Assembly (NCBI RefSeq): GCF_037392515.1
Contig: NC_090280.1
Coordinates: 23,813,118 to 23,877,117 of the forward strand
Reading direction: 5' to 3'
DNA length: 64,000 nucleotides
Origin: Haliotis asinina
Taxonomy: Eukaryota; Mollusca; Gastropoda; Lepetellida; Haliotidae
How positions within the stretch are numbered: the first letter of the stretch is position 1; every line of letters begins with the position of its first letter. A program made the translations under genes and the position numbers. The notes beneath the pieces are model-generated. The model saw nothing but the letters and a program-made list of their open reading frames with translations. It was not told where the DNA came from and did no database searches. Shown here piece after piece: positions 24,101 to 62,545 of the stretch.

Positions 24101-27100
24101 CATCCGAAAAAAATGAGTGTAGTTTGTTTGCAACCCACAGACATAAAAACATGTCGTATGTATCACACGTGCCTAATTACATAATGTGGCAGACACGGGA
24201 CTCGGGTGCACGAGTCATAAATCAACTTATTTTCTTTATGTCGTATAGTCTGATAGGCGTTAAGTTCAAATTGCACGTGGTCAATGATTGAAGCTGTGTA
24301 TTGCATGTTGTCTTTAGCAGACAGGCAGACAGACATATGGGTGTGAATAAACCAGACACTCAGCTTTCTCTGTGACAGAAACTGCTTACTACAAACAACA
24401 AGTTGATTTACGTAACGAGTAGATTATTTACTTGTTTGTGTACACAACCAAGATTAGACTACTGCTCACGACCACAGACGCTGGGCATGCATACTGTTTC
24501 AAGCTCCGCGAACCTATTCACTGCGCATGCGTTATGCACAGCTGTTGAAACCAGTTTTCCCCTAGCGCTGGGGGGAATTTAGTGAAACGTTTGAACTCCG
24601 ATTTCGCGGGCTTTTTTTTCATCGCGTTTTTTCCAACTTTATAGGTTGAATTGGCATTTTTTATGATTTGTTTCGGTAAGTGCATACCTAAAGGTACCAG
24701 AATCTGCAAAGTTGTGTTTTACGTTGCATGTGACCTTTAACCAATAATGATAATCTAAGACGGTTTAATTTACTTTGTACCTCTGTTTTAGCTGATCATA
24801 GCTAAGAAGACCATTTTCATTACAAATATCTCCAACATAATGGATACCAGTCTTTCATCATGTATGAGGAGTTATTTAACCAAAGTGACTGAACCAACGT
24901 TTGGTCTAAGTCATTACTGTCAAAGGTGTGTTTTTTAAATAAAATATTCTCCAATCACTGGGACTACTCCACACTACCATTACATTCAAGCAATAAACGA
25001 GCCACTTACGGTAAGACGGGAAATTGTCTGGTGTACAAATTTTACGGTGTTTCTTTTAGGATTAGCCCTCCTGTGACGTTTTTGGTTCAGTTAGAAGATA
25101 AACGTGTAGTTTGAGGATTTTATTCAGTAAACGAGGTGTTTGAGTATTGTGTATAAACAAAACATAGTAAACAATAGAAGATGACTTATGCGTTGGTAGT
25201 AAACTCAAATCCAACGAAAGACATCGTAACTATTGAACAAGTTACTAAGGTATTGATAGAGTGTAACAAAGGCGAATGGCATCACTGATCTAATACAGAG
25301 ATTGACACTATCTCTTCGTTTCTTTCAGCTGACATCTAAGTGTAAGAAGGCTACACTTTTTCTCGTACCAATATTTGCCAGTTTGACACTGAATATCATA
25401 GCTGGGTTCTACACGTCTTTAATGTTCCATGCCATGGTCTTGCCAGGAAAAATATCCTTTGAAGATGGAGAGATGTCCGCTGAAGTAGGAATCACATTTA
25501 TTGTGTTTTCTGCACTAGCAGGTACATTCAGTGTTTCATCCACCTTAACCATAGTCACCAATGTAATACCTGTCTCTTGTTCACCCGTTTACCATGGTCA
25601 CCAATGTAATACCTGTCTCTTGTTCAACCGTTTACCATGGTCACCAATGAAATACCTGTCTCTTGTGCACCTGTTTACCATGGTCACCAATGTAATACAT
25701 GTCTCTTGTTCACCTGTTTACCATAGTCACCAGTGTAATACCTGTCTCTTGTTCACCTGTTTACCATAGTCACCAATGTAATACCTGTCTCTTGTTCAAC
25801 CGTTTACCATGGTCACCAATGAAATACCAGTCTCTTGTGCACGTGTTTACCATGGTCACCAATGAAATACCTGTCTCTTGTTCACCTGTTTACCATGGTC
25901 ACCAATGTAATACGTCTCATGTTTATCTCTTCACCATGGTCACCAATGTAAAACATGTCGGTTGTTCATTTTGTTTCACCTTGTTCACGCCAGAGTAGCT
26001 GTTAACGGCTAACATGCGTATTATGTCTACATAGACGCTACATGTTGTCACAGTTGCACTCAGTCATCAATAGTTTCACTTTTGTTATGTATTTCAGCTG
26101 CTTCCTGTGCGCCGCTCATAATCAGATTTGGCTTTCGAAAGGTGTCTCGAGCCGGAAGTGTTCTGCTTATCTGTTCCTCTCTCTCATCATCAGTGACAAC
26201 CACAGCCGATATCCTGTCTTTCATCATGGGAGGTCTGTCACAATATTAAGAGCTTCTGTTTTAGACACACCTCAGGAGACTTAAGCTCCGGGTCATTTTT
26301 CTTTGAACGTTCGTTTAGGGCCAATTTAAGGAATGAGTATACACCTTACACGTTACGCTGTAATTTGTCATACCTTGTGCAATCACTTGGAAGTTTTGTC
26401 AAACAATCAAAAATTGTCGGCCATTCACAGCAAAAATAAGCTGGTTTCCGGAACACTGAAACCGAGAAGAAACGTCATGGAAACCAACATTTCCAGTTGG
26501 TTTCCAGGGAGTTTCCTATAGTTTCATTGTGGTTTCCATGCAACTGAAACTGCACCATTTCAGGATGGTTTCCAGTTCGTTTCATTACCCACTCCTCCAA
26601 GCGGGATCCAGTTGGTTTCCATGTACGAGTTTATTGTAGGTTTCAACCTGGTTTCCATGTATTAGTTTATTGTAGGTTTCAACCTGGTTTCCATGTATGA
26701 GTTTATTGCAGGTTTCAACCTGGTTTCCATGTATGAGTTTACTGTAGGTTTCAACCTGGTTTCCATGTATGAGTTTATTGCAGGTTTCAACCTGGTTTCC
26801 ATGTATGAGTTTATTGCAGGTTTCAACCTGGTTTCCATGTATGAGTTTATTGCAGGTTTCAACCTGGTTTCCATGTAGGAGTTTATTGCAGGTTTCAACC
26901 TGGTTTCCGTGTTGTAGTTTCCAACCTAGTTTAATACCTAGTTTCCATGAACTGAAACTTGCTCGTGTGGGCCCTTTACCGGGTCCTCCGGAAAAGATGT
27001 TGTTTCATATCTCACATGTAGCAAATCAGGTATTTTATACAATTGCATAATGGTAAAAGGCTTCAGGATGACAAACAACAGAATAAAACACAAATTCATT

Positions 27101-33100: not shown

Positions 33101-35607
33101 CAGTTTCATTTGGTAAAAATGTTAGACTGGAAACAGTGGCACAATGACATGGGCAAGATGGGTCCATCACCAACAAATACCATGAATTATATTGTAAGGT
33201 ATATATTTAAAACTGACAGGATCACCTTGACAGGAAACATTGCTCACATGCTCCACAGACGGAATCATAGCAAGATATATATAAAAATATAATAATATCA
33301 GTTATTAATTGACATTGTCATTTAATTGTCAGATAAAAGAATGAATGACTGTTTGGTTTGTATATGATGTGAGTTAACAGCATGTATTTTCATAATTTTC
33401 ATTAATTTTCATGATGTGAATATATTGCAGATATGTAATTATCAGCTACCATTCATTAATTCATTCCAAGATATCTTGAAATGTGAGTGAAAGTGAGTCA
33501 GTGAGTGAGTTTAGTTTTACGCCGCACTCTGCAATATTGAAGCTTTATGGCGGCGGTCTGTAAATAATCGATATCTTAAAGTAAATGCATCAAACGATCT
33601 TGTGATGAGAGTGAAATTGTCAGTATACATATGCTGTTCACCATGTGAAATTCCAAACTGATATAATGTATTCATCAGCAAGTATATAGACGCAATCTTA
33701 AAATCAGATGAAGGTTAAAGTAATAATACACAAATTGCACAACATCTGTTTTATATATCATTTCGGAACATACTCCTTCACCATGATGCAGGTGAGAATG
33801 TCTTTGGTCCAAAACAATGTTATAAAACTTTATAATGTTACTTTTCAATGTCATTAACATCAATCATATCAACTACACTCTTCAAAAAGAGAAAAAGAAA
33901 CGCCATTTTGAAGAATTTATTGCGTTACTCCAAAGCAATTATTTCATTGAATTTCAATGGCAAGAGGTGAATATTCACACGTTGAAAGACAAAGCTTTCG
34001 CCAACACATCAGCTGTGTTTTTGTTTTAATTTGAGTCCACAAGAGGGCATCAAAGTCAGTATTTACTGCCCGGATAAGTCGACGATGTCGCTCTTTTGGA
34101 ATTCTTCTACGCTTTTTTCTGCAATGCGATTGCCGGTTGTAGAAGTGTATGAGGCGTGTTTTGACGTTGGCGTACATGTCCACCGAGTTCATCCCATGGG
34201 TGTTCCATCGGGACTAGATCTGACCTTCCTCTGTGTATGTGTGGGTTCATAAACGGAAACAGGACAGGGACTTTGTTGATAGCCGCTTTTTGCTGTTAAA
34301 TTCCCCTGCACCAGCATTTAAGTAGATCTTTGTGTGATGAGTATTGCGCACCACACTATGACACTGAATCAGTTAACCTGGCGATTGAAATTATGCACAA
34401 AACGCTGTGTTCCACCTTGCTGGTGACGAAGAAATCGCGATTCATCACTGATCCAGACTTGTCTGAAGTTTCTAAGGTTCCAGTTCCGGTCTCTATACGA
34501 TATCACCGCAAACGACTGCACTTATGGATGTCTCTCGAAACAGGGGAGACAACTGGCCTTCATGGGCGAATCGGTACATAACGCAATCGATTCCTGACAG
34601 TCTGGTCGGAAATTCATCTCAAATAAGGGGTGCAGCCTCAACGACTGTGGCACAACGATGTGAGCAATGGGGATGTGGCGGTCCCAGGGCAGCCTCTCTT
34701 CTGGTGGCATTTGTCTTCCGGAAACGATCCCAAAGGCGAGATATGGTGCTCGGATGAACGTTGAAATGCTGGGCAACTACAAACTACGTCTCCCTCAGAT
34801 TCAAATCAGCCAATGGCGATGTTTCCATAGGTGGTACTCAGTCGTGACATGATGACTTGCTCTTTTCCATGAAAAAACAATTGACAGAATCAATACCGCA
34901 TGCATATTCGATTACTTGCTCTGGTTTTTGCTTCGCGTGTTTTCTTGGTCACGTTTTGGGGAATATTTCAAACGCTCCGAAAAGATAGGAAGAAGTTTAA
35001 ATTGTCACGTTTTGCTTTGTTTTACTGTCGCGGGAGAAGACGTGTTGGAAATAAATAGTATCTTTGCTTTGTTCTTGCCCAGTAAAATATTCTCAAAATC
35101 ACTTATGCGCTTCTTTTTTTGAAGGGTATATTTATCAAAAGTCCAGAGATTGACATTGCAATAAAGGGATGAAATGATCGTGAACGAAGAAAGTGTTTTA
35201 CATCAACACAACAATATCAACTATGATCTCTGTTACTTAAGCATTCTGTTGTATTTAATATTTCAGCAAGTATTTCAGCCACCCGAGTAAATGCTGCCAT
35301 GTATCGTGCTGGCGTACCCCTGGTCATTGCAGGAGTTTGGACTATCACTTCAGCCGTGGTGATAAAACGCTGGCCTCCTCTCAGTAATGAGAGAGAGGCA
35401 GAGGACCAGGTGCCGGATCAAGTTCAGGAAGCAGAGGACCAGGTGCCGGATCAAGTTCAGGAAGCAGAGGGCCGTGTCGAGGATCGTGTACAAGGGACAG
35501 AGGACCGTGTCGAGGACCAAGTACAGGAGGCGCAGGACTGTGCCGACGACCGTGTACAGGATGTAGAGCAACATGTCAAGCTCCGTGAGGACGAAGCCGA
35601 GAAGTAA
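21143..35607 (+). CDS. SLC16/monocarboxylate-transporter-like MFS protein
   Basis: Seven exons in consistent phase: 21143-21439, 25329-25521, 26098-26232, 30910-31215, 31506-31754, 32954-33079, 35267-35607; 548 residues. Residues 1-99 are acidic, cytoplasmic and carry Tyr motifs (GYESI, YHYID, YDYIQ). TM1-2 fall in exon 2; the MFS loop motif RFGFRK is near 173-178; GGLAVGHLQTLGVVAIGDH fits MCT TM4. GRRNLNLALPLLVCLDCVGR followed by LIGG, then AAMYRAGVPLVIAGVW, matches MCT TM10-12. The tail (about 479-548) is six 11-residue repeats such as EAEDQVPDQVQ, probably a coiled coil. By family it should move small carboxylates or similar solutes across the plasma membrane; the substrate is unknown. AATAAA at 35642 follows the stop. 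Exon 4 also has an in-frame upstream acceptor at 30819, and exon 7 a second acceptor 12 nt downstream. Confidence 0.85.
22205..22258 (-). ncRNA. Degenerate hammerhead-ribozyme-like core
   Basis: On the minus strand CTTGATGAAGGGG is followed about 15 nt later by CCGAAACGTCG, matching the order CUGAUGA-stem-GAAAC of hammerhead ribozymes that Penelope-like elements carry. The first box has an extra base and stem II is weak, so activity is doubtful. Confidence 0.3.
22618..22829 (-). mobile_element. SINE-A copy with 11-bp target duplication
   Basis: TCTCCTGATGA occurs at 22607-22617 and again at 22830-22840. The copy lacks its 5' head, as expected from target-primed reverse transcription, and interrupts the Penelope-like fragment. 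Confidence 0.95.
23467..24736. mobile_element. TTAA-flanked DNA element, 1270 bp, non-autonomous
   Basis: Perfect 14-bp terminal inverted repeats AGGTCACATGCAAC / GTTGCATGTGACCT are flanked by TTAA on both sides (23463-23466 and 24737-24740). TTAA targets are used by piggyBac and Kolobok superfamilies. No transposase frame is seen. An internal inverted pair (about 23807-23842 and 23888-23924, around AACTTCTTTTAGTGTAT) looks like a nested insertion. A related fragment lies at 17530. Confidence 0.8.
24957..25290 (+). repeat. Tandem duplicate of the 3' end of transporter exon 1 plus intron
   Basis: Resembles 21394-21700: it repeats the last 50 or so coding bases (encoding TPHYHYIQAINEPLT), the donor GTAAGACGGG and roughly 270 bp of intron. 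The reading frame and donor are intact, but no acceptor is visible at the left end, so it would need an alternative start or a distant acceptor to be used. Confidence 0.75.
25522..25975. repeat. 43-bp minisatellite starting at a splice donor (transporter)
   Basis: About ten units beginning GTAATACCTGTCTCTTG and containing TTTACCATGGTCACCA. Unit spacing is 43 bp (for example 25561 to 25604). The sequence right at the exon-2 donor (GTACATTCAGTGTTTCATCC, 25522) aligns as a diverged first unit. Confidence 0.85.
26621..26920. repeat. 36-bp minisatellite in the CACTA-like element
   Basis: About eight units of TTTCCATGTATGAGTTTATT followed by GCAGGTTTCAACCTGG. Each unit contains the subterminal motif GGTTTCCA, so the array is an amplified part of the left subterminal region. 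Open frames on both strands here are by-products. Confidence 0.9.
27172..29166 (-). CDS. Four-exon small basic protein, unknown function
   Basis: Exons on the minus strand, phases consistent: 29166-29060, 28182-28114, 27946-27845, 27253-27172; 119 residues. It starts MTFTIEAFEIRIREKLRRAA, contains KTDDGSLDQLILTYKRSFLM and DEQDGSLMKVWGKQRHKAC, and ends in a basic stretch GRRRSTQFFLSWGKS. The motif DGSL occurs twice. I recognise no family. AATAAA (complement) lies at 27106-27111. The last exon has two acceptors two bases apart (CAG then AG); the first would give a shorter end, EGWKAGRL. The gene lies inside the CACTA-like element, head-to-head with the gene at 29469. Confidence 0.6.
29300..29345. 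promoter_or_regulatory. Bidirectional promoter: YY1-like and ZNF143-like sites
   Basis: Between the two divergent start codons, ACAAAATGGCGGCAAC matches the YY1 consensus and GGGGCATTGTGGGTAA (complement TTACCCACAATGCCCC) matches the ZNF143/Staf core. An ETS-like ACTTCCGGG lies at 29508, within exon 1 of the plus gene. There is no TATA box. This is the layout of a housekeeping bidirectional promoter in animals. Confidence 0.55.
29469..30274 (+). CDS. Two-exon tail-anchored microprotein, 77 residues
   Basis: Exon 1 29469-29540 (24 codons, phase 0, donor GTAAGTTC) joins exon 2 30113-30274 (acceptor ATTTCTTTTCAG). The product starts MSRVRVPMDYRFITSGF, has a hydrophilic middle (KKASDPQFDKADNQNLDL) and ends in a hydrophobic segment STIFMFSAVIVKFVCMVVGI right at the C-terminus, typical of a tail-anchored or small integral membrane protein. 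A second ATG (residue 8) is a possible start. AATAAA at 30292. I recognise no family. Confidence 0.6.
31930..32560 (+). other. Unclassified GC-richer stretch in transporter intron
   Basis: Overlapping open frames of 67-93 codons (for example LPVENPGAHLICVKEVS) suggest a decayed coding insertion, but I could not assign it to a family. Confidence 0.3.
33500..33571 (-). mobile_element. SINE-A 3' end only
   Basis: GTGAGTGAGTTTAGTTTTAC through GGCGGCGGTCTGTAAATAAT; the rest is absent, a strong 5' truncation. Confidence 0.85.
33876..35126 (-). mobile_element. Tc1-like element, decayed
   Basis: The ends CACTCTTCAAAAAGAG and (complement) CCCTTCAAAAAAAGAAGC are flanked by TA. On the minus strand a decayed transposase shows VAQHFNVHPSTISRLWDRFR (helix-turn-helix), followed by much-diverged catalytic sequence with several stops. 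It lies in the last intron of the transporter gene and is absent from the matching intron of the inverted copy, so it arrived after the duplication. Confidence 0.75.
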
Positions 35608-36940: not shown

Positions 36941-36947
36941 GTTTAAT

Positions 36948-37121: not shown

Positions 37122-37129
37122 GTTTAATT

Positions 37130-37799: not shown

Positions 37800-40700
37800 A
37801 TGATCAAAGTTCCACTTCTCCTCTTGTGTATCACGTCCTTCGCGTACACTCAAGAGGGTGGAGCTGGCAAACCAAAACCTCCACCTCGGCCGGCAGGTAG
37901 GTTGACGTAAAGATACACCTGTCGCCGATCCAGACGCAGGTAGGCTGACGTTAAGATACACCTGCCGCCGATCCAGACACAAGTAGTTTGACGTTAAGAT
38001 ACACCTGTCGGCTATTCAAGGAGCAGGTAGGTTGACGTTAGGATACTCTTGCCGCAAGTCCAGGCCGAGGTAGGTTGACGTAAAGATACACCTGTCGCCT
38101 ATCCAAACCCGAGGAGGATGACGTTAAGATACACCTACCGCCGATCTAGACCCAAGTAGTTTGACGTTAAGATACATCTGTCGGCGATTCAAGGAGCAGG
38201 TAGGTTGACGTTAACACACCTCTGCCGCTGACCACGGGACCCAAGTAAACTGACGTTTTGATATACCGATGTCGCCGATTCAAAAAGCAGGTAGGTTGAC
38301 GTTAAGGTACTCCTAGCGCCAATCAAGACCCATGTAGGTTGACGTTGAGATATATCTGTCGCAGATCCAGACCCAGGTAGGCTGACGTTAAGATGCACCT
38401 GCCGCCGACCACAGGACGCAGGTAGGCCAATGTTTAGATACACCGCTGTCGCCGATTCAAGAACCAGGTAGATTGGTGTTAAAACAGGTAAGTTGAAGTA
38501 TATCTCTTTGATTTAGACCAGCGCCGATTCCACACCAAGCTACTGATGACGTAACACTGCGATGTTAACCTTGTCTGAAACATGAGGTTATTGCCCCTGA
38601 AGAAGGGTTTGTGAGCATATGAACAGAGAGAGTAGACTCACTTTCGTTGCAGATGTTTGGGACAATGTGATTGGTTTCTGAGAATTGTGAACTGAGTTGG
38701 TAGCCACAAAATATACTTCCTCTTTCCAAATTCTACCCAAACACGTTCTCCCTAAGCTTGTAGTTGTCTTTCAGCTCACGAACAAACATATTGATGTAGT
38801 GAATGGACTTTATGGTATTTATTAGGTGTAGCTGACTTGTTCACACGCTGTCTGTCAATAACGTGTATCTTCAGTGTGTGTCCCCTGTGTGTGTCTGTTC
38901 TGTGTATAGTGTCTGTTGTGTGTCTGAGTGGGTGAGCAAATTAGATATGCCATAGGTCTATATATTTTGTATGAGAGTTGCCTTCCCTAACAGCAATTTA
39001 GGTCCTTTGATACAATTTACTGACCGTGATTATGAATTGGTGGTTGATTCTTTTCACGACTCCATAGAATAAGGGGATGTGAGGTAGCCTTGTAGTTAAG
39101 CGTTGGCTCGTCATGCCGAAGACATGGGTTCGAATTTCCAAATGCGCACTTTTCTAGCGTCCCCGCTATGATATTGATGGAATATTGCTTACAACTGCAT
39201 TAAAACTCCCTCACTTCATAAAACGTACAAAAGGACCAAGTGGCGGTTGTATATATTTGCAAAATTCATGTGATAAAAAACTTGTGGCATATGTTTATTG
39301 TAACCAGAAATGAAGAAGAAAATATCCCTGTTATCATTCAACACCAGTGTTGAGACAGATCTCTCAAGCAGTCACGGGCAATGTAACCGTAACAACACTA
39401 TCGTTCACCGGCCGGTTGTAGACGCTGGTATGATTCTCTGCTGAACCTTTTCTTCGTCACATCTCATCCCAAACATGCTCCAGGTTATGTGTTCATGATA
39501 TATTTGCTCTGTTTTCGATACGCGTTTCTAAGCACGATGAGATAGCAGCATTGAGAAGTCTCTCCAACTCGCTGCGTGTTTGGAACACAAAGACAACGCC
39601 TGGTGTCACGCCTGGTCCGGGCCAGTGTCGTCCGCCGTGCGTCGCGCTGCGCTTAATGAGTGTGATATGTCTGAGGAATCTGAGAATGAGGCATCTGTGC
39701 CGAGGGAGAGACAGTGCAATGAAAAAAGATCCATTCCGAGATTTGGGCATTTACATTATATTGATTAGATATAAAAAAACCATACCAACATAACAACAGG
39801 GAACATCACCTCACAATGAGAAATACGTCAAGTTTGTTTGATGTTGTTATTTAACAACTCTCAACTAATGTGAACTATATACAGTAATGTACAAGTAGCT
39901 GATTTCTAAAGCACCTGCTTTCTGCTGCTCAATGGCGCTGTTATAGTCTGGCAGGCTAATGAGGGCTATGCCTGTCGGAACAAATATGCTTTAGGATTTT
40001 CCTGAAGGTTGTGCAGCCGACGTAATGTCAATGAGCAGGCGATTCCAGAGGCCCGGGGCTGATGCAGAAATGACCTATCTGTCGACATAGTTGGTATGAG
40101 CAGAGTAGAGACTTTAGACATTGATGTGTGTCAGAATGATTGGAACCAGTGTAAGTCAGTGTAATCTTGTTACAATGTAATCTTGTTACAATGTAATCTT
40201 GCTGCAATGGTTCATGTTACAGTGGTTCTTAAGGCAACCATCATGTGGTTTGTAAATGATCGAATCTGAGCCATCGTCATGATTGACATCGTGAACACCG
40301 ATCACCGGACAGTTTGCATACACTTACGTGCACCAATTAGTCAATCCTGACCACCCGATATTGTCACTCGCCAAGTGTAGTTTGTTCCAGTTCTAACCAG
40401 GATCCCGAGATCTTTGAGGGAAACCTGTTCACTTCGCAGCTGCTACTCGCTCTGAAAATCCTCAGATACAATTTCCCCAGTTGATCCCCTGAGGTGCGTT
40501 CTCATGGGGCGACTTGAAGTAACAACTTGTAGCATACGACTTGAAGTAAAAAGAGGATCTCAACGACTTCGTTATCTGTGTACTTTCAAGTCGCACACAA
40601 CTCGAATCTAGCGAGATTCTCACGTATGATTCGGCAGCATGGACTCGTCGAGTGATGATGGGACAAAGGGACGTCACTCTGAGGCGAACACAGATCTCGG

Positions 40701-43700
40701 CGATTTGATTGGTCGAGAGCTTGCGTCTTGTAGTAGGAATTAGGACAAGTCCTATGTATTACAATTCGGTTGCAACTAGTTGTATGTGATTTAAGTCGTT
40801 ACGATTTGGGTGTTCTCGCTTTACATCTGTGTTGCATGCTACAAATTGTTACTACAAGTCGCACCGTGACAACATTTCCTTTAACAAAAGGCATACATAT
40901 TAAATATTTTAATTTAACACAACTACCCTGCTAGTATTCTAGAAGATGCCATGACGCTATTTATGACTGATAACCTACTAAGATACAATACACAATCAGA
41001 TACCATGCTCCATTTTGACTCGGATATTCCATTTTGGCACAGTGAACCAGAAGTCAAGATGTCGTTATTGAAGTGTATGCCCCACTTTGCCACAGCATAC
41101 CAAGAGGTACCATGCTGTTCCTATAGTCTAATAAGGATACCCTACTTAGAGAAGGCATACCACGAGAAACCATTTTATAATGGATAACCCACTTCTATGA
41201 TGGAACCTCTTCTCAGACACATCATACCATGGTATACCATGCCAGAGTTTAACACAGATAACTAACATACACACAGTAAACAATGAAATACCATTATGCT
41301 GTTTAACACGGATACCCTACTGCCATATGATATCATGACTCAGTTTAATTTGCACACCCTACCTAAAACAGTATACCATAAGATATAATGACTCAGTTAG
41401 TCATTGACACAGTTAATACGTGTGATTCAGATGAAATAGTTCGTCAGACACATAAGCGTTAAAACGAGCACCTGGCAATTCACACACGTTGTCAGTCCAC
41501 CAGAACTGTTTAACTGACGCTCATGCGGTTATGTGGAGCTTCAATTCACGCGATGCTATTAACGTACCAGAGACGCTGAGACCGTTAGACGCTGCTAATG
41601 TCGTGCTGGTCCAGATTGGGAGTGCTCCTATACCTGTCCTCACTCGTGGCTCGGACAAAAGGTAATATGTAGCAGCCCAGGGTTGCAGGGTAGTTACAGG
41701 TTTCTATTAATTTTAGTGTGCATATCAACCACGGGTGCTTGTGATATGAATTAATGTTACTGCATATATCAACTAGAAACCCGGACGATATAAACTGTAT
41801 AGTATATATCAACCAAATCCTTGTATGATATTATTGTTGCTGTATATATGTCAACTGACGTCCCATGTGGTGTTAATTGCATTTTACATATCAACCAGCC
41901 GATGTGATATTAATGGCACTGTATATATCAATCTGCATTGTGTGTGACATCAGTGTTACAGTGCATACTATGGTGCATGATTGTATCATAATGCATCATG
42001 CTGTATGGAGCTGATACAGTTGTCATCGTAACAGTAGATATACTTTACATGGTGAGAAACGCGAAGTCCCCCGAAGGTCCGGGGTAGAATCGGCCTTCAG
42101 CACCCCATGCCTGATCTAAAAGGCGACAATGCCTGTCGTAAGAGGCAACTAACGGGATCGGGTGGTCAGGTGGTTCCCAATCGATGCTCCTGTTGTCGAT
42201 CACTGGATTGTCTGATCCAGACTCGATTATTTACAGACTGCTGCCATATTGGTGGAATATTGCCGAGTGTGACATATAACTAAACTCACTCATTCACCCG
42301 AGAAACGCAAAAGTGTTTTTTCAGATGTATGCATATTATATATACACCTGTATTCAACAAATTATAACTTGTTTACAGTTGGTTCATGTCATTGTCCAAG
42401 GTTACCATGGCACACTAAACAATCCAATATCATTGCATAGGGCCAGGAGACTCCGGAACCGACTGGCACCATCGCCTCATAGAACCAATTTGTTCAAGTA
42501 CTGGAGGTTCTGTTGTACTTGAGTACTGAGTACATGGAGGTTGTGGTTCCTCGGAATGTCCATTGTCAGTCTTATCTTGTTTTTAGTTTACGTCGCTTTC
42601 AGCAATAGCCCAGCAATATCACGACAGGGGGACACCAGAAATGGACTGTCAGAAGCCGGGCGTTGGTAAATGTATTGTTTCGGTTAACTTTTTGTGTACA
42701 TGTATAATTTTTTTGTTGCGCATAATTTTGCAAGCATATTCCAAGTATGTATGAGAGATGACGGTCCATCGCATTGTTTTTGTCAGACACAGCATGTTTT
42801 CACTTGCTGTGCAGTTGCGGTAACAGAGAAACGAAAACGCATCATTAATAAATATTTTCATAGCTCAGCGCGTCATGTTGCTCGTTGTCAGAGTATAGCT
42901 TTCTTCTGCACTAATGTATGCACACGCAATGCAGATATGTCCAATTTTGTACTTTTGTGTTTCTGTTTGGAGAGTAAACCATGCTACCTGGTGGATAATG
43001 ATAATAGCACGGAATATTTCAAGGTGTAGGGCGAATGTTATGAACCTTACATGTATTTTTCATGCTGTACGCAATGTGATCCCAGGTGTGGGTGTCGTCA
43101 TAGGTCCAGTCAACTGCCCACAACACCCGACAGCGACACGACACTCCCACTACTCCATCACCAACAGGTGCTACTACTACTACGATGCAGAATACACCTA
43201 TCATGAGGCTGTCAGTCTATGCGAGTCGGAGAACACAAGAGTTGTCGTACTTCGGACAAGAGGTGAACAGGATTGGCTTATTGGACGCATATGTGACCCA
43301 AGAGGTAGGAACAGACATTGTTGATTACATACAGTAAAACATGAAAACAAGGGACATACGTTCTTCATTCTATTGCATGGTTTAAGGTGACGGGGAATCG
43401 CTCAGTGAGCTGAATTATTCATTTCAGCGGCACGGTGGGCCATTATTCAACGAGCAGTGGGATAGCCTCTAGGTAATTCTTGAGAGAAGCAAAACCGGAA
43501 AACCTAAGGGGGTGATGTAGTAAAGGTTACGCTACTGTCTAGTGTATATAGGTCACAAGGTCGGCACTACTTCTTCTTGCTTTGATGGGTAAGTGTATCT
43601 TTCTTTAGTGGGTAACAGGACAAAAAGGTAAAACTGCTTCTTGCTTTGATGGGTAACTATATCTGCCTTTAGTGGGTAACAGGACAAAAAGGTAAAAATA

Positions 43701-46285
43701 CCTCTTGCTTTGATGGGTAAGTGTATCTTTCTTTAGTGGGTAACAGAACAAAAAGGTAATAATGCTCCTTGCTTTGATGGGTAAGTGCATCTTTCTTTAG
43801 TGGGTAACAGGACAAAAGGGTAAAAATGCTTCTTGCACTGATAGGTAAGTGTATCTTTCTTTAGTAGGTAACAGAACAAAAAGGTAAAAATACTTCTTGC
43901 TTTGAAGGGTAAGTGTATCTTTCTTTAGTGGGTAACAGGACAAAAAGGTAAAAATGCTTCTTGCTTTGATGGGTAACTATATCTGTCTTTAGTGGGTAAC
44001 AGGACAAAAAGGTAAAAATACTTCTTGCTTTGATGGGTAACTATATCTGCCTTTAGTAGGTAACAGAACAAAAATGTAAAAATACTTCTTGCTTTGATGG
44101 GTAACTATATCTGCCTTTAGTGGGTAACAGGACAAAAAGGTAAAAATACTTCTTGCTTTGATGGGTAAGTGTATCTTTCTTTAGTGGGTAACAGGACAAA
44201 AAGGTAAAAATGCTTCTTGCATTGGGCATTATCATTTGCAGAAGCTCAAGGCCTTTTCAACTGCCCTCCTCCCTCGAACAGTTAATTGAAGACCTATGGC
44301 TTCTGCAAATAATAATGCCTTTAAAAGCAGTGTTACCCCTATAATATCAAATGTCCTGCTCCTTTTACAAAAGACGGGCGGTAGGGTAGCCTACTGGTTA
44401 AGGTGCTTGCTCGTCACGCCAAAGACCCTTTTTCGATTCCCCACATGGGTACAATGTGTGAAGCCCATTTCTGGTGTTCCCAGCGTGATATTGCTGGAAT
44501 ATTGCTAAAAGCAGAGTAAAACCATATTCACTCATATACAACTACGTCTGTGTGTAACAGGGAGCTGTAACCGTCCTCTAATACTTTGGCTTGGTCTGGT
44601 CAGACAAGCTTCCAACACCTGGTACTGGTTCTACAAGAGCTACCAATGGGACGTGTTCTCGCCACGATGGTTACGTTTGTCAGATTCCGCCTCTCCCGGA
44701 TACACCCGAGCGGTGACGGACCGTGACGGAAAGTGGCGAGCTGTGACCAGAGACCAAAGAGCCAAAGTTGTCTGTGAGGAAGTAAAATCGGGTATGGTGA
44801 GCTTTGTTACTGTGGTGGGTGTAGATGCAGTAGACGTGGTGGTAGTAGTAGGTGTAGGAGGCGCAGCTCTGGTGGTTGCTGAAGAGACAGTTATAGTGAC
44901 GGTTTGGGGGAAATGAAATTCTCAGTGTGATATGTAGTGACAGTTAATCGTCATATTAGACGTCATTTGACTATGTAAGAATGTTGAAATTTTCCACAAG
45001 TTCTGGGTATACATAGCAGTTATATAAAATAAACACGGGCAGAATGTAATTGAAAATTATCGTGTTCAAAGGAATAGCTAAAAGATCAAGGTTTGTAACG
45101 ACGCAGGATTCGAACCAGCGACCGGCGAGGGCGGTACGCTTAAAGCACGCAACTTTCCTCGAACCCCCAAACCCACCATGACATATGCTGATGAATCTAA
45201 CTAAACACAGTATTTTTAGTCATGTCTTTATATATACTAAACAGCAATAGCAATACTTTTTTGTCGGGTTGTTAAATAGAGGACATAAACATGAACACAT
45301 ACGTTTATGAGATTTCTCTTTTTCCGAAACTTGCTTTGCTTTTCTTTAGCTGTTCAGTATATACTCTTCAAAAAAGGTAGGGGAACCTGAGCTTTGAAGT
45401 CTGGTAGACAGAAAACCCATTGAGGAACGTTGCAATGACATTCATCTAGTGTATGAAGCATCATTGCACGTTATCGCCACACGCAAACACAGTGCATGGG
45501 AATCACGTGCACAACATGGGGGCCTCCTACACGTGCATGGGATGTCATTAATAATCTTGACGTTTTTCAGGCAGGTCGATAAATCTTTGTAGACCATTTT
45601 TCCGATAAATGTCTTGCATCTTTGCATGATCAAGGTGTTCAGGATCAAATCACACACTACTGACTGAAAATTGTAAACCTGAAATTTTCATGTCATACTC
45701 CAGTCACCTAACAAGGGACATAATTGAACGAACAGCCTTGCCTTGAATGAAATCCATGTGGTCATGCATTCTCAAAACATCCATGATTATTGTATCAACA
45801 TTGATTCAATCCCATATACCTTCCAATTTCGACAATCGTACATTGAAAGTACAGTTCCCCTACCTTTTGTAAAGAGTATATATTCTGCAATTATTGTGAT
45901 GTTTCTTTCATGTATACCAGAGGATATGCCAAGGCTAAGATCAACATCTCAATCACCACCACCAGCAACATTGACGCCTATCATCCCTCAGACACCCAGC
46001 ACATGCGCAAAAGTGGGGCAGGAGACAGACGACATCGCTGTAACGAACTTTGAACAACTGTCCTCAAGCGTGTGGGTCGTTGAGATGAACGTGACAAGTA
46101 AATCATCAAGACTAGCGTGTGCCATGACATGCTCGAAAGAAGAACGTTGTGTGATGTTCAAGAAGCAGCCGGGAGGGAGGGAGCCCTGCTACATGTACAG
46201 TCTCTCCAACAACGGATCTCCTGCAGACTGTGTGGGCAACCCGCCACCGTGTTACTGGAAGTCCTGCTGGCGTCCGACGCTGTGA
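37800..46285 (+). CDS. Secreted C-type-lectin-like protein with PAN-like C-terminus
   Basis: Four exons joined in phase 1: 37800-37896, 43086-43304, 44561-44791, 45921-46285; 303 residues. Exon 1 gives a signal peptide (MIKVPLLLLCITSFAY, cut near 16-18) and a Pro-rich stretch. Exons 2-3 (about 38-182) form a C-type lectin domain: VNCPQHP, RCYYYYDAEYTYHEAVSLC, ILWLGLV, NTWYWFYKSYQWD, GKWRAV, VVCEE. The Ca2+/sugar motifs EPN or QPD and the penultimate Cys are not seen, so classical sugar binding is doubtful. Exon 4 has a Pro/Thr-rich linker, then a Cys-rich region (RLACAMTCSKEERCVMFKKQ) resembling a PAN/apple domain, ending CYWKSCWRPTL. Probably extracellular, perhaps in recognition or mucus. 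Introns 1 and 2 each contain a minisatellite. Confidence 0.82.
37897..38500. repeat. 43-bp minisatellite starting at a splice donor (lectin)
   Basis: About 13 units beginning with GTAGGTTGACGTTAAGATAC and ending CCGATCCAGACGCAG. The first GTAGG is the donor of lectin exon 1 itself; successive starts are 37897, 37940 and 37983, exactly 43 bp apart. Later units are diverged and slightly longer. Most units keep CAG-GTAGG or AAG-TAG at the junction, so they contain donor-like sites. Confidence 0.9.
38520..39070. other. No recognisable feature (lectin intron 1)
   Basis: Unique-looking intron sequence; no exon found. Confidence 0.4.
39076..39216 (+). mobile_element. SINE-B copy
   Basis: Sense copy: tRNA-like head GAGGTAGCCTTGTAGTTAAG, B box GGGTTCGAATTTCC, then TGATATTGATGGAATATTGC. 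Confidence 0.75.
39220..40490. other. No recognisable feature (lectin intron 1)
   Basis: A GC-richer segment at 39500-39760 has open frames on both strands, but no domain or splice context is recognised. Confidence 0.35.
40498..40873. mobile_element. MITE, 376 bp, with about 43-bp terminal inverted repeats
   Basis: 40498-40540 pairs with 40831-40873; the shared core is CGACTTGAAGTAACAACTTG against its complement with few changes. There is no coding capacity and the superfamily is not assigned. Confidence 0.75.
40960..41420. repeat. Degenerate tandem repeat
   Basis: Recurrent GATACCCTACT and ATACCATGCT blocks about 50 bp apart with heavy decay. Confidence 0.5.
41700..41975. repeat. Degenerate tandem repeat
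   Basis: Recurrent TGATATTAATGTTACTGTAT plus ATATCAACCA blocks about 55-60 bp apart. Confidence 0.55.
42063..42296 (+). mobile_element. SINE-A copy
   Basis: Sense copy with head CCGAAGGTCCGGGGTAGAAT and tail CTAAACTCACTCATTCAC; an internal deletion removes part of the middle. Confidence 0.88.
42586..42665 (-). mobile_element. SINE-B fragment
   Basis: CGTCGCTTTCAGCAATAGCC followed by CACCAGAAATGG, the 3' part only. Confidence 0.5.
43569..44221. repeat. 64-bp minisatellite in lectin intron 2
   Basis: About ten units, each with GATGGGTAAGTGTATCTTTC, then TTTAGTGGGTAACAGGAC and AAAAAGGTAAAAATGCTTC. Every full unit therefore contains a strong donor match (GGGTAAGT) or its GGGTAACT variant, and a pyrimidine-rich acceptor match (TATCTTTCTTTAG). 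Confidence 0.92.
44381..44535 (+). mobile_element. SINE-B copy next to lectin exon 3
   Basis: Best SINE-B copy here: head GGGTAGCCTACTGGTTAAGG, B-box-like TTTCGATTCCCC, tail TGGAATATTGCTAAAAGCAG then CATATTCACTCA. It ends about 25 bp before the exon-3 acceptor. Confidence 0.8.
45362..45878. mobile_element. Tc1-type MITE, about 520 bp
   Basis: The terminal inverted repeats around TACTCTTCAAAAAAGGTAGG (left) and CCTACCTTTTGTAAAGAGTA (right) lie in TA-rich flanks. It has no transposase and is probably an internal-deletion derivative of a Tc1-like element. It sits in the last lectin intron and ends about 40 bp upstream of the exon-4 acceptor. Confidence 0.8.
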
Positions 46286-46691: not shown

Positions 46692-46961
46692 GACCCGTGA
46701 AGGTCCCGGGGTAGAATAGGTCTTCAGCAACCCATGCTTGATATAAAAGACGACTGTGCTTGTCGTAAGAGGCGACAAACAGGATCGGGTGGTCAGACTC
46801 GCTGACTTGGTTGACACATATCATCGGTTCCTAATTGCGCAGATCGATGCTCATGTTGTTGATCACTGGATTGTCTGGTCCAGATTGGATTAGTTACAGA
46901 CCACCGCCATATAGCTGTAATATTGCTGAGTGCAGCGTAATACTCACTCACTCACTCACTC
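46692..46961 (+). mobile_element. SINE-A, full length with 11-bp target duplication
   Basis: The reference copy for this window, 270 bp, from GACCCGTGAAGGTCCCGGGG to CTCACTCACTCACTC. AGATGTTTTAG flanks it at 46681-46691 and 46962-46972. Confidence 0.97.
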
Positions 46962-49345: not shown

Positions 49346-49349
49346 AAGT

Positions 49350-51125: not shown

Positions 51126-51133
51126 CCATTTAA

Positions 51134-53142
51134 AGGGGCACTGATGCGGAGCGAATAATGCTTCTCGCTAGCGGTCTAATTACGAAAGCAGACCGCAAAT
51201 TGGTCAGCGCCCACTCCTTCGACCGTGACGGACAAAGGAACTGGGCTCCTGTCCATATTAGCAAAATTTCTTTACTTAAACAGTCAGGAGGCCGGATGCC
51301 CATCACATGCCATTTGTTTAAAAATATCCATGGTATTCCTTGTCTGATCGTAACCATATATCCCAGCAGTGTAGTTCTTTTCAGATGCTTGGATGGTATA
51401 CTTACTGATCCAATTTGATCCTATTTCTGTGTTTTTAACCTCGATATTTAATCATGTTACATGGAAATATGATGTCTACAGGCACGTAGCAAGCCATTTG
51501 TTTCAGTACGGAAGATTGCAAAGCTGTATATTTAGGTAGTTTTGAGTGTTGGTTGAGCTGTGATAGCAAATAGCATACGTAAATTTTGGTAGCTATGGTA
51601 GCTACAATGGTTTATTATTTATGATAATAAAACACACAGTTGATTTATTTGAATTCGTAAACAAAAAAACGATGACCTTGGCTTTGGTAGAGAAATCTGA
51701 AAATTGTCTTACGTAAAAAAAACTTATTTCACTTATTTACCAAAGTACACAGCAAATGCCTGTGTGTATTCCTTATGTAACGAAATTCCGTTGGTATCCT
51801 CAAAACAGTTTCGGCCCATAAGTGTTTTCAGGCTGCATGCGACACAGAGATTACATCTTCCTTGCTGTAACTCGCGTTTGATGGTGTAAACCTACACGTG
51901 TTATTTGTCATCATTCTCTTGATGGTCAATTCATGAATTTATAACAGGTATAATTAGTAGCAACACCACATCGTTTACTCAACAAAGGTTCCCATTTGGC
52001 ATTTCTCCTGTCTGGAGTAAATACTCAACATTATAAATTAAGGTCTGTAATGGCAAATGTATTGTATGTTATGTAATATGTGCATGTAAGTGATGCAAGA
52101 GGGTTTATCACCTGAGTTACAAAAACAAACATCCATCAAAGGATTAACCGATAACACACTGATTGATTAATTACTTTTGTTCTTCTAGCGGATTTGTCAA
52201 AAGGCAGTGTGTGTAGATGACTACACCCTGTCGTAAAGTGTGAGTGCAAAAACAACATCCTCCCTTCAAAGAATTAACCACCCTTGCGTTGATTGATTGA
52301 TTGCTCAATATTGGTCAACTAAATTACTTAGAATAGTGGACATCATACAATTAGTTGCCAGGTGTGCTATCTTGGGAGACCAATGAGAGGTTTATCTAGT
52401 TTTCACCAACGAAAGATGTGAAACGATGTGTTACTTTTTCGCAAATGAGACAGTTGTAAGACACGCGACACAGAGCAGGATTATTTACCAGCTGCAGATG
52501 AATGGAATACGATTTCTTTTACGTGGATATTGATGGATACATTCCTGAACAAGGTAGTAGCCTGACACTGTTGCTATAAAATTAGTCTGTTTTACGTTCA
52601 TTATTTGCATTTTGTTTTAATTTATTTGTTGTAGCATTCAGCAGAATCTGTATGACAGGAAACACACACTAGATCGCGTATGTGTGTGAAATAGGATCCA
52701 CATTGGCAATCTATGCAATGTATAAATGTTGCTGTTATGTTAGAAATTTACTATGAGTATAAGCAAATCGTGTGTTCTTTTATTAATTTTCAGAATCATA
52801 CAAATATGACAATAAACTAATTAGGGTTATGAGACAAAATATAGAGACGTACATTGGCTTCGTTATTTTTCCGTCCTAATAGTTTTTTACCATTTCTACC
52901 ACTGGCAGATGATTAACCTTCAAAGTGTTTCATTTGTTTTCATAATACATTTGTAATGAAGTACAATTGACTTCACCTCAGTTTATATGTCTATAATTAA
53001 ACTATCAATTGCGCTTACGGACTGCGCAGCAGAGGTCACGAACCAGTCATGAATTCTGGGATATCATCCGGGTACTCACGGGAGAAAAACAATAACAAAA
53101 GTTTACACCAGTCCACGGAAAATGCTCCGCATCAGTGCCCCT
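51134..53142 (+). mobile_element. TTAA-flanked DNA element, 2009 bp
   Basis: Perfect 19-bp inverted ends AGGGGCACTGATGCGGAGC / GCTCCGCATCAGTGCCCCT, flanked by TTAA at 51130-51133 and 53143-53146. Internal frames are short (86 codons from 51158); no transposase is recognised, so it is non-autonomous or decayed. A diverged copy lies inverted at 58387. Confidence 0.85.
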
Positions 53143-53300
53143 TTAAGGAATGTTGGTACTGGGCCTGTACAATTTTGCACACTGGCGATGAACTCCCCCG
53201 GTACAGGCAAAGAAGTATAGCCAAGTAAACAACCGTGACAATGCCAAATTGGCTCTTTACAGTTCGGCAGGCATGTAGGATATTTCAAACCACAATCCTG

Positions 53301-53900
53301 TCATTGAGTCCTTGTGGGTGGAATGTATGGAGTTAAAAAATCCACCGTAATTTGAGAGATATCTTCTCTTCTGGATGTCTGGATGTTGTTGTTGTGTGAT
53401 GATGTCGAATTTGTCATTCTTGCCGTGAAGTGTAATGCGACCAGTTTGTCACATTTATGGGTGATATCAGCGTATTGCTCTGATAGTCGCATTCTGAAAC
53501 ATCTTTTGGTTTCACCTACGTATTGCTTGTTGCAGCTTTTGCAAGCGAGTAGGTATACTTCATTCCGGGTTTGGCAGGTGTAGCTTCTTTTATCTTTTAT
53601 TCTTGTTAGTGACAGAGCTGTGGAAGGTGTCATTGCTTTGTGAGTGTTTTGCAGATTTTGCTGTAATCTCTGTTGCATTCATTGTCTCCAAAGCTGACAG
53701 TTTGTCTGCTGATTTTTGTTAGTTTTCTTGGGTAGGTGAGACGGGTCCTGACTAGATGGTCCTAAAGGGTTTTGATCCTACGGTAGGTGGCAATATATGG
53801 TGAAGTGAATGTGGCTTGGCAAGTGTCTGAGCCACTAAGGAGGTGCCAGCGTTATTTGACAACGGCATTGAGTTCTGTGATAAACTCACAGCCAATGTGG
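53301..53900 (-). mobile_element. Penelope-like element fragment with GIY-YIG domain
   Basis: A minus-strand frame ending at 53301 carries VYLLACKSCNKQYVGETKRC, the start of a GIY-YIG nuclease of the type fused to Penelope-like reverse transcriptases. Decayed reverse-transcriptase C-terminal sequence precedes it up to about 53900. Incomplete and old. Confidence 0.65.
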
Positions 53901-54371
53901 CCCAGTGTACTCTCCTTTAATACATACTGGCATACTTAAATATGGTTCCTACTATTTAAAACAAGCTGATACCATAGGAAACTCTGAAAAAAGCCTCAAA
54001 CAAACAAGAAAACAAAACAAGTTCATCTATATGAGTTTAATTCATAAAACTAGATGAAAACATGATGCGTTATTCTTTCATTGACCTTCTGCATGAACTC
54101 GTTCAATACAAATTTCAAAATTCATTTCACCTGATACGGACTATTTCAAAAGTATTTTCAAAGTTTCATTTAGAATTCAATCTTTTGACGTTATGTCCAG
54201 TAAGGCATGGTATTCAAACAACACTATAAATTATTGAATTTGTGTTCTTGAATGACATGACGCCTACCAAATCTTTCTTATGTTCTTGTCCAAGCAAAAT
54301 TCCTGCTACATGTTATTCTTAAAGATTTAGGTCAACACTTAACCTTAGTTGAAAATGTCTTTGTAAGTGCT

Positions 54372-54641
54372 GACCTGTGAAGGTCCGGGGTAGAATAGGT
54401 TTTCAACAACCCATGCTTGCCATGAAAGGCGACTATGCTTGTTGTAAGAGGCAACTCTCGGGATCGGGTGGTCAGACTCACTGACATGGTTGACACATGT
54501 CTTCGGTTCCCAACTGAGCAGAATGATGCTCATGTTGTTGATGACTGGATTGTCTGGTCCAGACTTGATTATTTACAGACCACCACCATATAGCTGGAAT
54601 ATTGCTGAGTGCAGTGTAAAACTTAACTCATTCACTCACTC
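54372..54641 (+). mobile_element. SINE-A copy, full length
   Basis: Sense copy from GACCTGTGAAGGTCCGGGGT to ACTCATTCACTCACTC. Confidence 0.93.
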
Positions 54642-56190: not shown

Positions 56191-56199
56191 AGTTGTAAG

Positions 56200-58380: not shown

Positions 58381-58386
58381 GTTTAA

Positions 58387-60240
58387 TGGGTCACTGATCC
58401 AGGGCAGTTTCCGTGAACTGGTTGTTGCTTTTGCTGTTGTTCTTATATCTAAAGTATTGGGATGATATCCCAGAATTTGTGACCATTTCATGACCTTTGC
58501 TGCGCCCACTGCATGCACAGTAGATAATACAGCTATAGATTGATCAACAAAGATGAAGTCATTTTCACTTAATTATTATGAAAAAAAAATGAAACACTTT
58601 GAAGTTTAGTCATCTGCCAGTGGTAAAAACTGTTAGGACTGAAAAATGGCAAAGTCAGTGTACGTCTTTATATTTTACCTTATAATCCTAATTAGTTTAT
58701 TGTCATATATATATGCAGTTTCAAACAATGAAAAAGCACATAATATACTTATAGTGAATTTATAACATGACTGTTATATCTAGACATTGTATAGATTGCC
58801 TATGTGAATCATATTTCACATACACACACACTCTATACATGACCTAGTGTATGTTTTCTGTTGTACAGATTCTGCTGAATACTGTGATCTATGAATGTCC
58901 AGGGTAGAATAGGCCTTCAGCAACCCATGCTTGCCCTAAAAGGTGATGATGCTTGTCTTAAGAGGTGACTAATGGGATCAGGTTGTCAAGCTCGCTGACT
59001 TTGTTGACATATGTCTTCGGTTCCCAATTGCACAGATTGATCCTCATGCTGTTGATCACTGGATTGTCTGGTTTAGACTCTATTATTTACAGACTGCTGC
59101 CATATAGCTGGAATATTGCTGATTGTGGCTTAAAACTAAACTCACTGCTACAACAAATGAATAAAAAACAAATGCAAATATTAAAATAACAGACTAAAAT
59201 TTTAGCAACAATGTCAGGCTATTACCTTGTACAGGAATGTATCCATCAGTATCCACATATAAGAACGATGTGCCATTCATCTGCAGCTGGTAAATAGTCC
59301 TCATCCGTGTTATGTCTTTTAACAGTCAAATATGCTGAAAAGATGATACATCGTTTAAGGTTGTTTGCATTGGTGTAGTCTCCCTGACAACACACCTGGC
59401 AACTAATTGTAATGGCCACCATTCTTTATAAAAGTAATTTAGTTAACCAATAATGAGCAATCAATCAACATATGGATGGTTAATGTCTTGAAGGAAGGAT
59501 GTTGTTTTTACACAGAGACTTTACGACAGGGTGTATTCAGTAGATTAGTATATCTTCACACACAAACACCTTTTGCCAAATTTGCTGTGGAACATAAAAA
59601 GTAATTATCTTGTCAGCTTGTTACTGGTTTAATCCTTTGATCAATGTTTGTTTTTGTAGCTCAGCTGCAGTCTTCTTGCTGCACTTCCAGGCACATATTA
59701 CATTACATATTACATATTTTAATTACATGTAATACATTTGCCACATTTACTCTAGACAGGAGAAATGCCAAATGGGAACCTTTGTTGGGTAATCTAAGTG
59801 GAGTAATCTGAGTGGTTTTACCAATAGTGATACCTTTTATAAATTCATTATAATGGTGACAAATAACATGTAGGTTTATACCACCAAACATGGGTTACAG
59901 CAAGTGAGAAGTAATTGCTGTATTTCATGCAGTTTTAGTTGCCTGATGAGCCGACACTGTTTTGAGGAACTTCATTTTTCCAATTTAAAGAAATACATAT
60001 AAGAATTTGACATGTACTTAAGTTAAAAACATATATACCTTTGTACCTAAGAAATTTTCAGATTTTTCTAGCAATTGCAAAGTGGTCTTAGTTTAAAGAT
60101 TGAAGTATGTCAAATGTGTTTTTATTAGCATAGGTAATAGACCAGGGTCGTAGCTACCATTACAAAAAATGTCAGGGCTTACACATGATTTTTGCTATGA
60201 AAGTTGGACCAATATAATCTACATATAAAGCTTTGCAACC
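58387..60240 (-). mobile_element. TTAA element, inverted diverged copy
   Basis: Reverse-orientation relative of 51134-53142: it starts after TTAA (58383-58386) with TGGGTCACTGATCCAGGGCA and then follows the other copy backwards (for example GGGATGATATCCCAGAATT, ATCTGCCAGTGGTAAAAACT, GCAGCTGGTAAATA, AGGAGAAATGCCAAATGGGA). A SINE-A interrupts it. The far end is decayed near 60240. Confidence 0.75.
58886..59145 (+). mobile_element. SINE-A copy inside the inverted TTAA element
   Basis: Sense copy from AATGTCCAGGGTAGAATAGG to CTTAAAACTAAACTCACTG. It entered after the host element had inserted. Confidence 0.88.
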
Positions 60241-60244
60241 TATT

Positions 60245-61280: not shown

Positions 61281-61289
61281 TAACACAAT

Positions 61290-61480
61290 TAGTTACTCGT
61301 GCTTGTCCACTTGGGCGCTCTAATTTTCTCCACCCAAGGAGGATCCTGGTCATGGCACCATTCAAGAACCCATTCACCGCTTACTTGTAACAAATTAAGA
61401 GACAATACCAGAAGTACAAGGAGATGGATATTTTATCCCAAGGAAGACATCTGTCGCATCATAGGCGCAGGTCTGCTCTA
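61290..61480 (+). repeat. Interspersed repeat R, copy 3
   Basis: Shares GGCACCATTCAAGAACCC, CTTGTAACAAATTAAGAGAC and CAGAAGTACAAGGAGATGG with 49070-49345 in the opposite orientation. Confidence 0.55.
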
Positions 61481-61729
61481 CTCATTGGGGAATGTCTCCA
61501 CCTTCAAGTTGGGGGAGATGTGCACCTGATTGCTGCTGAGACTGATGCAATGTCCATTTTTCAGCTTCAACAACTTCTGTATCTAAAGATTCAAAACACC
61601 ATGAGTGTTAGTAATTTGAACGAACAGTAATTCTTATTGAAAATATTTTTCAAAAGTTATGGCAGAAGTACTTATTCATATCAACAACCGATCATATCAT
61701 GTTTGTGTATGATGTATTTGTGTTTGCAG

Positions 61730-61848
61730 AATTCCGCCTTGCTCTGGTACAACTCACAGTTAGAGCATCGAAATCTGACAATCTTGCCAGGGCATCCGCA
61801 CTCATCAAAGAAGCTGCAAGCAGTGGAGCAAGGGTTGTGGCTCTACCG
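61730..61848 (+). CDS. NIT2: NIT2 (omega-amidase) exon 2
   Basis: Acceptor TTTGCAG, 119 nt, donor GTAAGG. It encodes FRLALVQLTVRASKSDNLAR then ASALIKEAASSGARVVALP. This matches the start of animal NIT2 (human MTSFRLALIQLQISSIKSDN... REAATQGAKIVSLPECF), a nitrilase-family enzyme that hydrolyses alpha-ketoglutaramate. The phase fits: two bases complete a codon begun in a short exon 1 and the exon ends in phase 0 before the expected Glu of the catalytic region. The following exons are not in the window, so they lie beyond 64000; exon 1 was not found. Confidence 0.85.
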
Positions 61849-62545
61849 GTAAGGTTCAGTCAGAGTTGAGGCGAGGGTTATGGCACTGCTGGTAAGATTC
61901 AGGCAGAGTTGAGGTGAGGGTTGTTGCATTGCTGGTAAGATTGAGTGAGAGTTGAGGAGATATTTGTGGCACTGCTGGTAAGATTGAGTCAGGCGTGAGG
62001 CAAGGATTGTGGGGCACTGTTGAAAAGATTCAGTGAGAGTTGAGATTAGGGTTGTGGCACTGCTGGTAAGGTTCAGCCTGTGTTGAGGTGAGCGTTGTGA
62101 CACTGCTGGTAAGATTCAGTTAGAGTTGAGGCGAGGGTTGTCGCACAGCTGGTAAGATTCAGTCTGTGTTGAGACGAGGGTTGTTGCATTGCTGGTAAGA
62201 TTGAAAGAGAGTTGAGGAGATATTTGTGGCACTGCTGGTAAGATTGAGTCAGGCATGAGGCGAGGGTTGTGGGGCACTGTTGAAAAGATTCAATGAGAGT
62301 TGAGATCAGGGTTGTGGCACTGCTGGTAAGGTTCAGCCTGTGTTGAGGTGAGAGTTGTGACACTGCTGGTAAGATTCAGTTAGAGTTGAGGCGAGATTTG
62401 TGGCATTGCTGGTAAGATTGAGTCAGGCATGAGGCGAGGGTTGTGGGGCAGTTTTGAAAAGATTCAATGAGATTTGAGGTGCGGGTTGTGATACTGCTGG
62501 TAAGGTTCAGCCAGAGTTGAATACTTGTAAGATTCAGTCTGTGGT
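61824..62545. repeat. 43-bp minisatellite spanning the NIT2 exon-2 donor
   Basis: About 16 units such as GGCGAGGGTTATGGCACTGC then TGGTAAGATTCAGGCAGAG, spaced 43 bp. The first unit is the end of the NIT2 exon itself (GCAAGGGTTGTGGCTCTACC) plus its donor GTAAGGTTCAG. Each unit repeats a donor-like GGTAAGATT. A higher-order period of about 258 bp (six units) is visible, for example GGGTTGTTGCATTGCTGG at about 61918 and 62176. Confidence 0.92.

Follow-up and report, generated by a model that had tools for sequence, protein, structure and literature searches.

Three genes in one stretch of a genome carry tandem arrays of 43-bp units at or near the first nucleotides of an intron, which raises the question of whether splice donors attract such arrays or whether ordinary minisatellites have come to lie there. 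The window, by which we mean the whole stretch of 64,000 nucleotides that was analysed (C1:23813118-23877117), belongs to an assembly of 1.143 Gb in 159 contigs. The original prediction proposed that arrays with a period of 43 bp are anchored to donors as a rule. Here, we report that a 43-bp donor-anchored rule is unsupported by a sample of exon borders from the same genome, and that minisatellites spanning a junction do exist and recur in it. Arrays of this kind are already known from lancelets; here they are described in a probable mollusc.

Three 43-bp arrays and the genes that carry them

The 43-bp tandem arrays predicted in a transporter-like gene, a C-type lectin gene and NIT2 were all recovered by TRF at period 43 in the window (25548-25968 with 9.8 copies, 37894-38482 with 13.4 and 61831-62520 with 15.9). 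Their units had been called unrelated in sequence, and no pairwise likeness was found in a shuffle test (p = 0.10, 0.22 and 1.0); a dispersed repeat family common to the three genes was ruled out, there being no common unit sequence. The proposed donors at 25522, 37897 and 61849 are well supported by the reading frames, which join in phase across each intron. The exon and arrays of NIT2 are as follows:

61730..61848, + strand: NIT2 exon, here exon 2, encoding FRLALVQL...GARVVALP; donor at 61849
61831..62520, + strand: 43-bp array of NIT2; unit made of the last 18 or more exon nt plus the intron start
L005:594-1201: 30-bp array in NIT2 intron 3, starting 17 nt past donor 577 and filling most of the intron
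L005:1500-2109: 22-bp array in the interior of NIT2 intron 4
L005:5616-5900: 36-bp array spanning the exon 7/intron 7 junction of NIT2

Exon 2 matches PDB 2w1v (E 8.6e-9) and Pfam CN_hydrolase above its cut-off. Eight exons, of which one lies in the window and the other seven in L005, the stretch that follows it, were spliced in phase with the proximal donors into a nitrilase-like protein running from FRLAL to the stop, the first exon lying outside this reconstruction. The array had been described as beginning at the donor, but TRF places its start 18 nt upstream, within the exon. The unit consensus agrees with 15 of the last 18 exon nucleotides, and of the three that differ two are synonymous third positions; the last 15 match the unit at 12, a score reached at none of 63180 other positions of the window. 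Since the GARVVALP of the exon aligns to GANIVSLP of 2w1v, solved nitrilase homolog 2, the exon is the older of the two sequences. The intronic 43-bp units are thus copies of the exon/intron junction, and a donor-containing segment really was amplified in tandem. A similarity of the unit reaching 43 nt into the exon is weak (p 0.008) and was not relied on. The array takes up about 670 of the 2607 bp of intron 2, shows higher periods of 260 and 174 (TRF) as well as a recurring series of units, and grew by multi-unit blocks, as minisatellites do.

Donor-side arrays are present in three of the seven visible NIT2 introns, with periods of 43, 30 and 36. In intron 7 the unit consists of 27 nt of exon, encoding GHSSVVSPW, and 9 nt of intron, and the copy that comes first in the intron reproduces the junction without a difference (36/36). 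Among the six L005 donors only this one is strongly copied nearby (score 80), the rest scoring 24 or less, the intron 3 junction (score 24) included, and at the seven NIT2 acceptors no strong local copy was found (0/7, scores of 26 or less).

The lectin gene has the following parts:

37800..37896, + strand: coding part of lectin exon 1, with a signal peptide-like start; donor at 37897
37897..38482, + strand: 43-bp array, starting at the donor; units begin CAG/GTAGG (the stroke marks the splice site)
43573..44224, + strand: 64-bp array, 268 bp past donor 43305 in the second lectin intron; unit holds GATGG/GTAAGTG

The frame of exon 1 continues in phase into exon 2 (43086), and their spliced product matches Lectin_C (E 1.6e-7). 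For this gene the predicted array start at the donor held, TRF beginning 3 bp before it with a common CAG; the rest of the exon end is unlike the unit. The array occupies 586 of the 5189 bp of its intron. In the 64-bp array each unit contains three donor-like motifs. A genome search for an array-free paralog matched the lectin gene only to its own locus.

The transporter-like gene carries both tandem and dispersed duplications:

21388..21695, + strand: end of exon 1, donor 21440 and intron start; copied once in the same intron
24959..25288, + strand: second copy of the exon 1/intron 1 junction, with intact donor ACG/GTAAGA; 40 bp before the start of exon 2
25329..25521, + strand: exon 2, an open frame; acceptor TTTCTTTCAG before 25329; donor at 25522
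25522..25968, + strand: 43-bp array; first copy 25522-25562 of 41 nt, diverged; TRF start 25548
26613..26920, + strand: 36-bp array in the next intron, 380 bp past donor 26233 and not at the junction

Exon 2 joins exon 3 at 26098 with the frames in phase. No Pfam family was found for the product at its cut-off, and the putative name of transporter comes from the original prediction and hydrophobic segments. The start given by TRF lies at +26; a diverged copy of 41 nt does stand at the donor itself, followed by regular 43-nt units, with an alignment equalled in 0 of 1000 shuffles. The array makes up 447 of the 576 bp of the intron. A short similarity between its unit and the 36-bp unit of the neighbouring intron (p 0.007) was seen in one of ten comparisons. 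The two copies of the exon 1 junction are 78% identical over 331 columns and stand 3.6 kb apart; the dispersed copy may be a split tandem duplication. Neither gapped nor ungapped alignment revealed a likeness of the exon end to the unit in the lectin gene (p 0.78) or in the transporter-like gene (p 0.81), and these two arrays are donor-abutting minisatellites only, with no recognisable exon part.

Exon borders in the window and across the genome

In a chance model that scatters the arrays at random over the six introns whose donors are known, three of the five large arrays of the window have a donor no more than 30 bp from their start (p ~4e-4), and two of the five have one no more than 20 bp away (p 0.004); by the TRF starts, one of the five lies within 10 bp (p 0.05) or within 5 bp (p 0.03). 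These p-values are after the fact, the pattern having been chosen because it was seen. A looser test gave a weaker result: strong local copies of the junction were found downstream of three of the six donors (lectin 1, NIT2 and the dispersed copy of transporter exon 1, the transporter array being excluded), compared with 13-20% of positions drawn at random from genes, and none of the 5 acceptors in the window has such a copy.

For the genome at large, exon ends were approximated by the ends of protein-family matches. The sample comprised 60 kinase loci out of 138 matches, excluding internal stops, long single-exon frames and some others, and 31 Cpn60_TCP1 exons out of 52 matches. Three acceptors (L026, L032 and L046) were dropped because the match begins at the domain edge, and 20 PF00005 matches were left out, most of which begin or end at a domain edge. 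A total of 79 donors and 76 acceptors were placed, and arrays with periods of at least 20 were counted at these borders and at interior points at three distances. Arrays touch 1 of 79 donors and 9 of 237 interior donor-side points, and 2 of 76 acceptors (L045 and L052) and 14 of 228 interior acceptor-side points; the hits are few, and a two- or three-fold effect could escape detection in such counts. Junctions show no enrichment over the interior points, and the exon end is therefore no hotspot in this sample. The expected excess of donor-anchored arrays was thus not seen, and donors are not favoured over acceptors. The sole donor hit, L027, is a weak one with 2.2 copies of period 20, and the Cpn60_TCP1 genes taken alone have no array at any of their 26 donors or 30 acceptors. 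A G-rich 46-bp repeat in L042, which TRF starts 205 bp past a donor beginning GTGAGGTC, was counted as interior. Arrays at the further NIT2 donors (2/6) exceed this sample (1/79; Fisher p 0.012), a value that overstates the difference because introns 3 and 7 are short and array-rich.

Both acceptor hits lie in kinase genes:

L045:1-479, gene orientation: 58-bp array spanning the acceptor of a kinase exon
L052:233-480: 65-bp array entering the start of a kinase exon, 30 nt into the kinase match

The L045 unit contains the acceptor and 35 nt of the exon start, encoding DGSPFIVCMTYAF, and the acceptor is present in eight identical copies in the stretch analysed, the exon's own included. The exon is one that we take to be GRK-like. 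These acceptor arrays, together with the sample counts, rule out a location at donors only. Nor did the period of 43 bp prove to be a rule: among 32 arrays outside the window, counted with periods of 20-120, at least 3 copies and the best-scoring period for each array, none has it, and the periods of the junction arrays are 43, 43, 43, 30, 36, 58 and 65, plus 20 in the weak L027.

Origin of the junction arrays

The arrays are probably ordinary intronic minisatellites, some of which were born from segments straddling a junction, in the manner of the lancelet mirages. Short local tandem duplications would arise within genes, the introns of this genome often holding such arrays, by a duplicating step that may be slippage or unequal exchange. 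Where the duplicated segment straddles a junction, each unit would carry a copy of the splice site, the exon-proximal site staying in place and the new copies landing in the intron. With that site intact no change of the mRNA is required, and block duplications can extend the array; the exon-proximal site would be spliced normally and the array would be neutral. Neutral growth is the simplest account. The amplification of donor-containing segments that the original prediction envisaged is thus borne out in NIT2, and junction segments of unrelated sequence were amplified independently in other genes, but the restriction to donors is not. The three-fold occurrence of 43 is most likely a coincidence; against this, equal periods in three arrays would be unlikely if periods spread over 20-100. 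The start of the lectin and transporter arrays at a donor is unexplained by neutral growth unless the exon copy has diverged. In the transporter-like gene the array copy next to the exon is the more diverged one.

The concentration of array starts near the window donors stands against this explanation, as do the donor-side arrays of NIT2 introns 3 and 7 alongside acceptors that are untouched in the window and in NIT2 (0/5 and 0/7). The array starts in the window would fit a mutational hotspot at exon ends or donors, caused by a chromatin edge, a U1-tethered polymerase or R-loops and with a preferred unit near 43 bp, as would three of the seven NIT2 introns, in which donor and array start lie no more than 30 bp apart; intron 2 enters both this count and that of the window. 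Such a hotspot is nevertheless unlikely, given that sampled donors were hit no more often than interior points and that the periods at junctions vary. R-loops, which had been put forward as a common cause, gain no support from the GC skew of the sense strand, which is +0.54 in NIT2, +0.04 in the lectin gene and -0.31 in the transporter-like gene, opposite in sign between arrays; there is therefore no common G-rich strand. Hairpin-prone units as a trigger were ruled out as well, the two-unit consensus strands folding as DNA no better than their shuffles (z 0.33, 1.17 and 1.03).

The original prediction also suggested that selection favours arrays at 5' splice sites and that each array offers many decoy donors. 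The second suggestion applies to two of the three genes. By a human 5' splice-site matrix, decoys score up to 7.3 in NIT2, where the authentic site scores 6.3, and up to 6.6 in the lectin gene, where the authentic site also scores 6.6, but every sense GT of the transporter array scores -1.0 or less. Donor-like sites scoring at least 4 on the sense strand number 11.8 per kb in the lectin array, 23.0 in that of NIT2 and 9.2 in the 64-bp array, against antisense densities of 1.7, 0 and 0 and a value of 1.1 for the window overall; the 36-bp array of the transporter-like gene has none. An in-frame stop lies inside the first unit in NIT2 (61867), and the lectin frame ends at 37910, so that use of a decoy would truncate the protein.

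Selection could be imagined to keep such arrays either for U1 recruitment against premature polyadenylation or as poison donors lowering expression, the latter because use of a decoy in NIT2 or the lectin gene would add an early stop codon. The density of sense donor-like sites and the stops within the first unit would agree with this, as would the preservation of the lectin GT columns (0.964, against 0.826 elsewhere in the unit). The donor columns are indeed slightly better kept than the rest in the three arrays (0.944 vs 0.915, 0.857 vs 0.826 and 0.896 vs 0.844), but they rank 19, 16 and 8 among the 43 phases, many other phases doing as well. Furthermore, the decoy GT is missing from some aligned units in all three arrays (3/10 in the transporter-like gene, 1/14 in the lectin gene and 3/16 in NIT2), the transporter and 36-bp arrays lack strong sites, repeated units are not independent sites, and arrays occur on the acceptor side too. 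We consider selection of this kind quite unlikely.

That the arrays mark introns gained through tandem duplication of AG/GT-containing segments (the Rogers model) is very improbable: the CAG/GTAGG of the lectin units and the large array share of the transporter intron would agree with it, but the arrays form only a part of the lectin and NIT2 introns, whose acceptors lack a strong local copy.

Comparison with known systems and wider meaning

Neutral growth from junction segments has its closest parallel in the mirages of lancelets, described in the available parts of PMC3087553 and PMC3902484 as exon-intron boundaries duplicated in tandem in the manner of minisatellites, at both 5' and 3' splice sites and with units of about 10 to 160 bp, in the genes for Adh3, globins, troponin C and PGBD5. 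RT-PCR suggests normal splicing according to the same texts, and cluster boundaries are said in the portion of PMC3087553 at hand to escape homogenisation. The arrays of NIT2 introns 2 and 7 and of L045 are alike in that their units consist of exon and adjoining intron, L052 reaches into the exon, and in the Haliotis asinina genome, too, both 5' and 3' boundaries are affected, the latter in L045 and L052. The lectin and transporter arrays resemble mirages in position only, and the mirage unit of exon plus intron is found in one of the three arrays originally described, that of NIT2. The genome is a different, probably molluscan one, and whereas normal splicing and length instability are reported for lancelets, the present arrays are known from the DNA of one assembly alone.

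Among other systems, human segmental duplications show minisatellite variation at exon-intron boundaries with a mean unit of 30 bp (PMC2812944, in the part available); there recent paralogs and transcript evidence of new introns are described, whereas here the cases are mostly single genes seen in DNA. In the abalone Haliotis discus hannai, a TSSK1-like gene has a length-variable 27-bp minisatellite in intron 3, intronic like the arrays reported here; the accessible text does not place it at a splice site (PMC6905558). Intron gain by tandem genomic duplication is attributed to Rogers and to Gao and Lynch 2009 in PMC3087553, and potato RdRp is a further reported case (PMC4974935); the duplicated segments carry splice signals there as here, but newness of the introns is not indicated in our genes. 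In a nematode, the minisatellite CeRep25B occurs more often than expected close to regions of alternative splicing, as stated in the available part of PMC4039745, and a splicing function is for that reason conceivable in principle.

In the portions available of the openly licensed abalone and mollusc minisatellite literature no report of junction arrays was found; PMC3862624 treats microsatellites and PMC3902484 covers lancelet and vertebrates, as far as their accessible parts go. These partial sources treat minisatellites across junctions mainly in lancelets and human segmental duplications, and clear cases in a probable mollusc suggest a general process among animals whose introns are rich in minisatellites. 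The copied exon can be recognised here by the conserved NIT2 or kinase sequence that it encodes. Where an array offers many equal donors, it provides a natural test of how the spliceosome chooses the exon-proximal site. On a bolder reading, which we regard as unlikely, junction arrays recur independently and multiply strong donors shortly after the exons, providing through poison donors a length-variable dial of splicing and expression as well as raw material for exons and introns; genes like NIT2, with three donor-side arrays, could then be so tuned.

Other repeats are also present in the window. Three ORFs or remnants of the DDE transposase kind lie at 9027-9767, 16160-16717 and 18016-19026, and a short dispersed repeat of about 200-270 bp occurs in many copies on both strands, including the following:

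7350-7620: dispersed repeat copy
19555-19814: dispersed repeat copy
22615-22829: dispersed repeat copy
46692-46961: dispersed repeat copy
54371-54641: dispersed repeat copy
58883-59146: dispersed repeat copy

A related pair in inverted orientation (14207-14590 and 35139-35538, 75%) has a 33-bp tandem repeat in each member, and a long inverted repeat (51513-53146 and 58383-60241) shows 70-73% identity over about 1.6 kb. An ORF at 53301-53678 (- strand) gives a weak GIY-YIG match below the cut-off and is possibly part of a retroelement.
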